This document shows positions 2,688 to 3,239 of a stretch of DNA of 13,419 bases, one piece after another (within the stretch, counting starts at the first letter, position 1; each line of letters opens with the position of its first letter). The notes beneath the pieces were generated by a model that had not been told where the DNA came from, did not search any database, and was given only the letters and a program-made list of their open reading frames with translations. Made by a program: the position numbers and the translations under genes. The DNA lies in NCBI GenBank assembly GCA_946481625.1, contig CAMLOZ010000024.1:1-13419 (forward strand). The letters run 5' to 3'. The DNA is from an uncultured Haloferula sp. Its GTDB lineage: Bacteria; Verrucomicrobiota; Verrucomicrobiae; Verrucomicrobiales; Akkermansiaceae.

Positions 2688-3239
2688 TCATTCGATCTTA
2701 CCCGCCCGCGAGGGAGGATAAACGATGCGGTCGGCGGAATGCGTCACGGCAGCGATCGGGAAAGGCCCGAAGTAGCGGCTGTCCAGACTGTTCCCATGGT
2801 TGTCGCCCAGAGTGAACACCGAACCCGCCGGAACCTCGAGGGGGTAGCTCAGAACTGTAAAGCGGGGATCTCTCCCCTTCGCCGGAGTCGCACGCAAGCC
2901 GCCCCGTTCCGGCAGGCGCTCGCCGTTCACCACCAGCTCGCCATCGATCAGCTCAATCCTGTCGCCCCCCAGAGCTACCACCCGCTGAACGAAGCGGCTG
3001 CGGAGGGAGGCGTGCGCCTTGTCCGCCCGGAAGACGATCACGTCGCCCCGCTTGACCGTTCGTTCGGGCTTGAGGATGCCCGTCGCCAGGACCCGATCGC
3101 CCGCTTGGATGGTGGGAGACATCCCGCCCGTGGGCACGTGGTAGAGCTTGGCCGCTCCGGTCAAAACCAAGGCAAGAATCAGCGTTCCCACCAGGGAACA
3201 AGCTACGCAGAACAAGAAAAACAGTTTCCGCCGGGTCAT
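2688..3239 (-). CDS. lepB: Signal peptidase I (S26A) family protein with both catalytic residues apparently replaced
   Basis: This 183-residue protein has the layout of a small, SipS-sized type I signal peptidase, a membrane-anchored Ser/Lys protease that removes signal peptides outside the cytoplasmic membrane. There is one N-terminal membrane anchor (about 7-30). Box B reads [10 protein letters not shown] (35-44), box C is GDRVLATG (47-54), and box D runs from RGDVIVF (64-70) to RVVALGGD (86-93). Box E is [15 protein letters not shown] (145-159), keeping Asp153 and Arg155. In active enzymes the residue before Met in box B is the serine nucleophile; here it is Gly39 (codon GGG, 3123-3125). 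The residue before Arg in box D is the catalytic lysine; here it is Gln85 (codon CAG, 2985-2987). The reading frame is intact and otherwise well conserved, so it looks like a maintained pseudoenzyme rather than a decaying gene. An AGGAG lies six bases before the ATG. Fold assignment is secure; loss of proteolysis is inferred from alignment by eye. Confidence 0.88.

Follow-up and report, generated by a model that had tools for sequence, protein, structure and literature searches.

The question raised by this locus is whether a signal peptidase I homolog that has neither residue of the catalytic Ser-Lys dyad is still a maintained protein and, if so, how it might work. The gene lies on the minus strand of a 13,419-nucleotide (nt) stretch of DNA from an uncultured Haloferula sp. 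(contig CAMLOZ010000024.1, positions 1 to 13,419; this whole stretch is referred to as the window) and encodes a protein of 183 amino acids (aa). Based on sequence comparison and structure modeling, we consider it fairly likely that the product is a conserved, re-specialized pseudoprotease of the signal peptidase I family that works by binding. This agrees with the original prediction of a maintained pseudoenzyme, which is supported by the recurrence of Gln at the catalytic Lys site in 68 of the 80 rows of a deep clade whose fold and other boxes are conserved. The features of the gene considered first are these:

2688..3239, minus strand: dyad-less S26 (signal peptidase I-like) gene, 183 aa
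3246..3250, minus strand: Shine-Dalgarno-like AGGAG, 6 nt 5' of the ATG of the S26 gene
3159..3233, minus strand: predicted N-terminal helix, residues 3–27, after the start MTRRK (structure model)
3123..3125, minus strand: codon GGG of Gly39, at the nucleophile site
2985..2987, minus strand: codon CAG of Gln85, at the catalytic Lys site

Family Assignment and Dyad Positions

The 183-aa protein is confirmed by its sequence as a clear member of Peptidase_S26 that lacks the Ser-Lys dyad. It matches Pfam Peptidase_S26 (PF10502) with E = 1.3e-32 and NCBIfam TIGR02227 (sigpep_I_bact) with E = 6.7e-33, and it has the S26 fold and the conserved boxes C, D, and E of type I signal peptidases. Because the NCBIfam "signal peptidase I" equivalog accepts the protein (113.8 bits, cut-off 47), proteins of this kind are probably misannotated as signal peptidase I. 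Membership in the S24/LexA/UmuD type was rejected, with PF00717 scoring 12.6 bits, under its cut-off of 23.3. The helix at residues 3–27 would form the single membrane anchor.

Active type I signal peptidases have a Ser nucleophile in box B and a Lys general base in box D. Box B of the 183-aa protein reads VPTGGMSPT, with Gly39 at the Ser site, and box D has Gln85 at the Lys site; translation and codons agree with the frame and coordinates given in the original prediction. In a direct alignment to the solved signal peptidase 4nv4, G39 falls opposite the Ser of KSMMPT and Q85 opposite the Lys of YVKRIIGLPGD. Profile A1, built from an alignment of clade members only, gives the same placement against the E. 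coli enzyme (opposite PSGSM and YIKRAVGLPGD). The E. coli comparison also bears out the predicted changes in box E, where His148-Gly149 stands in place of Arg-Asp while Asp153 and Arg155 are retained. Since nucleophile and base are both absent, one would not expect the chemistry of a type I signal peptidase, and the Gly/Gln protein has presumably lost proteolysis.

Reaching a Ser codon from GGG takes two or more substitutions and reaching a Lys codon from CAG takes one, so that the Gly/Gln pair would need three base errors to arise by mistake. Relatives have the pair as well: in a first alignment with 38 scorable rows (query counted; other members 41–86% identical to it), 24 show both residues. 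Sequence error was therefore rejected as the source of the pair. Ser41 and Lys74, suggested earlier as rescue residues, were likewise discarded as an alternative dyad, as neither is conserved in the clade: of 78 rows, 49 have Ser and 22 have Ala at position 41, and Lys stands at position 74 in 11 of the 79 rows that could be read there.

A Deep Clade Mostly Lacking the Dyad

A protein search gave 354 matches at E ≤ 1e-5 and a profile search 452 at E ≤ 1e-20, and the best 120 of each were examined. The clade was defined as 80 rows, 39 from the protein search and 41 from the profile search, which are 35–100% identical to the query and largely metagenomic. Among the best 120 protein matches a clear gap separates P0001–P0039 (E ≤ 1.4e-33) from the next match (9e-21). 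Organisms are known for four of the 80 rows (Luteolibacter sp. Populi, Haloferula helveola, Haloferula sp., and a Verrucomicrobiota metagenome-assembled genome); NCBI taxonomy places both Luteolibacter and Haloferula in Verrucomicrobiaceae.

The two dyad positions are kept to different degrees. Position 85 is Gln in 68, Lys in seven, and another residue in five of the 80 rows (Gln 36, Lys 2, Met 1 in P0001–P0039), and position 39 is Gly in 51, Ser in 20, Gln in three, Ala in two, and Asn in one of 77 readable rows (Gly 25, Ser 8, Gln 3, Ala 2, and one partial row in P0001–P0039). Ser and Lys occur jointly in five of 77 scorable clade rows (P0024, P0172, P0174, P0175, and P0186) vs. 100 of 115 S26 rows outside the clade.

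A tree built with both dyad columns masked placed 77 clade rows (the 80 less partial ones) and 31 hand-picked outgroup rows on opposite sides of a branch with support 100/98, and a smaller tree (38 vs. 29 rows) agrees with support 99/97. Under a two-state model the clade ancestor is reconstructed as not-Ser (0.96) and not-Lys (0.987), with Gln at 0.99, and the sister pair P0193 and P0215 carries Ser+Lys. On this basis dyad loss most likely dates back to the clade's origin. The Ser+Lys members would then have regained the pair later, although several parallel losses could also account for the pattern. The original prediction had taken close relatives with a normal dyad as a pointer to sequence error or recent mutation. 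Such relatives do exist, but they are few and nested inside a clade whose ancestor is reconstructed without the dyad.

The standard Ser+Lys pair is missing as well from 15 of the 115 non-clade S26 rows (P0040, P0042, P0047, P0055, P0056, P0078, P0082, P0094, P0110, P0194, P0197, P0198, P0202, P0207, and P0209). They are scattered over several tree branches, which suggests that S26 proteins have lost the dyad more widely than the published examples would indicate.

Broader scans found distant matches. A genome-contig scan with the single query sequence gave just two loci (27 and 25% identity), a viral-contig scan with profile A1 gave one (L004, 23% identity), and all 370 records of a plasmid protein search were <60% identical to the query. 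In searches of genomes around one Anaerolineae record, 118 of 121 had matches at E ≤ 1e-3 (best 8.2e-22), and 0 of 399 matched at 1e-28. Because no known gene-bearing relative was among them, these four kinds of scan say nothing about the lineage of the window. No description of the clade was found in open-access PMC titles and abstract openings, the literature covered by our search, or in the relevant passages of PMC10540074, a paper combining Luteolibacter and "signal peptidase."

Conserved and Newly Fixed Residues

Gly145, Phe142, Asp153, and Arg155 are each present in 80/80 clade rows, Ser151 in 78/80, Thr43 in 78/78, and Met40 in 76/78, and the hydrophobic positions 33, 44, 50, and 84 are retained. 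Our assignments of cleft and oxyanion positions to E. coli sites are assumed, except those taken from PMC4049620. Three further positions set the clade apart from other S26 proteins:

2796..2798, minus strand: codon of His148; Tyr/His/Phe in 79/80 clade rows, Arg in 102/115 other S26 rows
2739..2741, minus strand: codon of His167; His in 74/80 clade rows and 0/115 other S26 rows (Gly in 97)
3147..3149, minus strand: codon of Lys31; K/R in 76/77 readable clade rows, Q/E in 79/115 other rows

Lys31 is probably older than the clade, since the sister pair P0193/P0215 has it too. At 148 the Ser+Lys clade members also carry the new residue (Y or F), and all of them but P0186 carry the one at 167. 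The residues newly fixed at 148 and 167 point to re-specialization rather than simple decay. The LepB/SpsB type I signal peptidases (MEROPS family S26) have the fold, boxes C to E, the membrane anchor, PF10502, and TIGR02227 in common with the clade; they differ in having the Ser-Lys dyad, a box E Arg where the clade has Tyr, His, or Phe, and a near-C-terminal Gly where it has His.

Predicted Structure and Known Dyad-Less Homologs

The structure model of the 183-aa protein (predicted local distance difference test score, pLDDT, 89) preserves the S26 fold, and its best structural match is the dyad-less SipA of Streptococcus.

Dyad-less S26 homologs are already known in Gram-positives. SipA (LepA) of Streptococcus pyogenes (PDB 4n31/4k8w) has the S26 fold without the dyad, as in the clade. 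Passages of PMC4049620 describe Asp48 and Gly85 at its dyad sites and Asn140 and Arg145 as the equivalents of Gly272 and Ser278, and report that SipA is needed for pilus polymerization, that mutation of the dyad-site Asp had no effect, and that its genes lie in pilus operons, where it works with a class-B sortase. The clade does not share the loss of the Gly272 and Ser278 equivalents, retaining Gly145 (80/80) and Ser151 (78/80), the residues around the lost Lys, where SipA has neither. The setting also differs: in the window the neighbors of the S26 gene are ligA and two genes that match no Pfam family, and a Pfam scan of the window's 10 other open reading frames (ORFs; three without a family) found no sortase or pilin. 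The second known case, SpsA of Staphylococcus aureus, is a signal peptidase I homolog without two conserved catalytic residues that is inactive and dispensable, in a Gram-positive cell that also has an active SpsB, according to passages of PMC12445088; we liken it to the clade by description only.

Proposed Binding Without Cutting and Its Alternatives

We picture a single-pass membrane protein whose S26 domain would lie on the periplasmic side, as suggested by the inferred topology. The Ser nucleophile and Lys base would have been lost at the origin of the clade, as the reconstructed ancestral state suggests, whereas the fold and the hydrophobic positions of the cleft, which in active enzymes holds the C-region of the signal peptide, would have been kept. 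Gln85, the aromatic residue or His at 148, and His167 would have become fixed as well. Such a protein would most likely not cut but hold on to a stretch of peptide, or to a partner protein, on the outer side of the inner membrane, acting as a scaffold or chaperone-like factor, a role like that proposed for SipA.

Several observations weigh against this picture. By sequence the clade is nearer to active enzymes than to SipA (profile A1: 4nv4 1.3e-20 vs. SipA 4n31 5.9e-14; query alone: 1.8e-10 vs. 8.5e-9). A cleft-blocking mutation left SipA functional and peptide-binding assays found no binding, as reported in passages of PMC4049620, so peptide binding does not necessarily follow from a conserved cleft. 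Gln85 is well kept yet lies outside the most conserved sites, as position 85 ranks 45th and position 39 ranks 64th among the 183 columns. Because five clade members have Ser and Lys, activity may exist or return in some of them.

Continued proteolysis by an altered mechanism, in which Thr37 or another residue is the nucleophile, the substrate assists catalysis, or something other than Lys is the base, appears quite improbable to us, even though Thr or Ser at position 37 in 75 of 77 clade rows is equivalent to E. coli Ser88, an oxyanion-hole residue, and even though Asp153, Arg155, and Ser151 are retained and His167 is new and nearly fixed. Position 37 is S/T in 105 of 115 other S26 proteins as well and therefore does not represent a newly acquired nucleophile; Gln does not act as a general base; Ser41 and Lys74 are variable; and the best-conserved Lys, Lys31 where the membrane helix ends, ranks 41st, so that the top 40 positions contain none. 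Decay, as a paralog becoming a pseudogene or as sequence error, is very hard to credit. Position 39 is indeed variable in the clade (G, S, Q, A, or N), but the dyad-less state is reconstructed at the clade base together with many invariant sites and the widespread Gln85, error would require at least three wrong bases, and 76 of 80 predicted proteins are ≥160 aa, which makes intact frames common, although broken copies would be invisible to a protein search.

The S26 protein could plausibly bind signal peptides or regulate an active LepB. The fold and the cleft-lining hydrophobic positions are kept, the inferred topology is that of LepB, and S26A signal peptidase I belongs to the housekeeping set of the reconstructed ancestor of Akkermansia, another Verrucomicrobiales lineage (passages of PMC10540074). 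As the explanation of the clade, a LepB regulator that acts as a decoy for signal peptides or for LepB itself is nevertheless unlikely in our judgment, and decoy binding leaves the clade's own fixed residues unexplained. We see a similarly small chance that the dyad switches on and off, the Gly/Gln proteins being inactive and some relatives active with regained Ser and Lys. The nesting of Ser+Lys members among Gly/Gln members would fit this, as would the 18 changes at the Ser column and six at the Lys column within the clade and the association of Ser with Lys there (Fisher p 0.011); on independent tree pairs, however, co-gain was not significant (median p 0.25 over six pairs; with so few informative pairs 0.05 was out of reach), and the sequences come mostly from metagenomes. 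It is also doubtful that Gln85, the aromatic residue or His at 148, and His167 make up a new functional site, for binding or chemistry, in diderms, with some lineages regaining the dyad.

Genomic Setting

Four genes run in the same direction and plausibly form an operon: the 179-aa gene, the 344-aa gene, the S26 gene, and ligA, in that order, with spacers of 12, 64, and 43 nt. The three neighbors of the S26 gene are:

4351..4890, minus strand: 179-aa gene, co-directional; hydrophobic Cys-containing N-terminus, no Pfam family
3304..4338, minus strand: 344-aa gene, co-directional, upstream of the S26 gene; no Pfam family
371..2644, minus strand: ligA, NAD-dependent DNA ligase, 43 nt downstream of the S26 gene

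A scan of positions 300–5600 found one promoter-like site (0.7 expected) and eight terminator-like sites (4.9 expected, standard deviation 2.4), two of the latter on the minus strand inside the start of the S26 gene. The 344-aa protein is modeled with a helix at residues 54–93 followed by a well-predicted C-terminal domain. In a fold search against the PDB nothing matched this protein at E ≤ 0.001 (the top entry, NTF2-like 3k7c, had 6.3e-3), and we therefore propose no function for it. Among 29 listed relatives of this protein, six have largest contigs of exactly the same size as those of clade members. One match, of 1480 bp, was ruled out because both proteins cannot fit in that length, which leaves five (213791, 8950, 3490, 6638577, and 2160 bp) vs. 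0.15 expected by chance. The chromosome-sized match of 6638577 bp signifies co-occurrence only, and the 2160-bp match, if one contig, would leave at most 561 nt between the S26 gene and the 344-aa-type gene. These matches indirectly suggest that the 344-aa gene is a conserved neighbor of the clade gene. The pair is probably not obligatory, since Luteolibacter luteus (6,412,079-bp contig) has a relative of the 344-aa protein and no same-sized clade record among the matches listed.

By eye, the N-terminus of the 179-aa protein resembles a secretion or lipoprotein signal without a standard lipobox. LigA (757 aa) has a charged Lys/Glu-rich stretch at about residues 570–640, between the HhH region and BRCT, which resembles an insertion relative to LigA of typical length. 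Elsewhere in the window, 7413–9137 (plus strand) encodes a DHH/DHHA2 protein with CBS and DRTGG domains within the DHH region, presumably resembling a regulated family II pyrophosphatase. The 513-aa ORF called at 9699–11240 (plus strand) is probably too long, as Zn_peptidase_2 covers only residues 288–505 and its first half lies opposite a short-chain dehydrogenase gene at 9723–10478 (minus strand).

Significance

The clade is a deep, conserved signal-peptidase group without the dyad whose members of known organism belong to a diderm phylum, and the two described cases, SipA and SpsA, are Gram-positive. It illustrates that the "signal peptidase I" equivalog can be assigned to a protein that lacks the catalytic residues, and its few natural Ser/Lys members make it possible to ask directly whether catalysis can return in a lineage of pseudoproteases.
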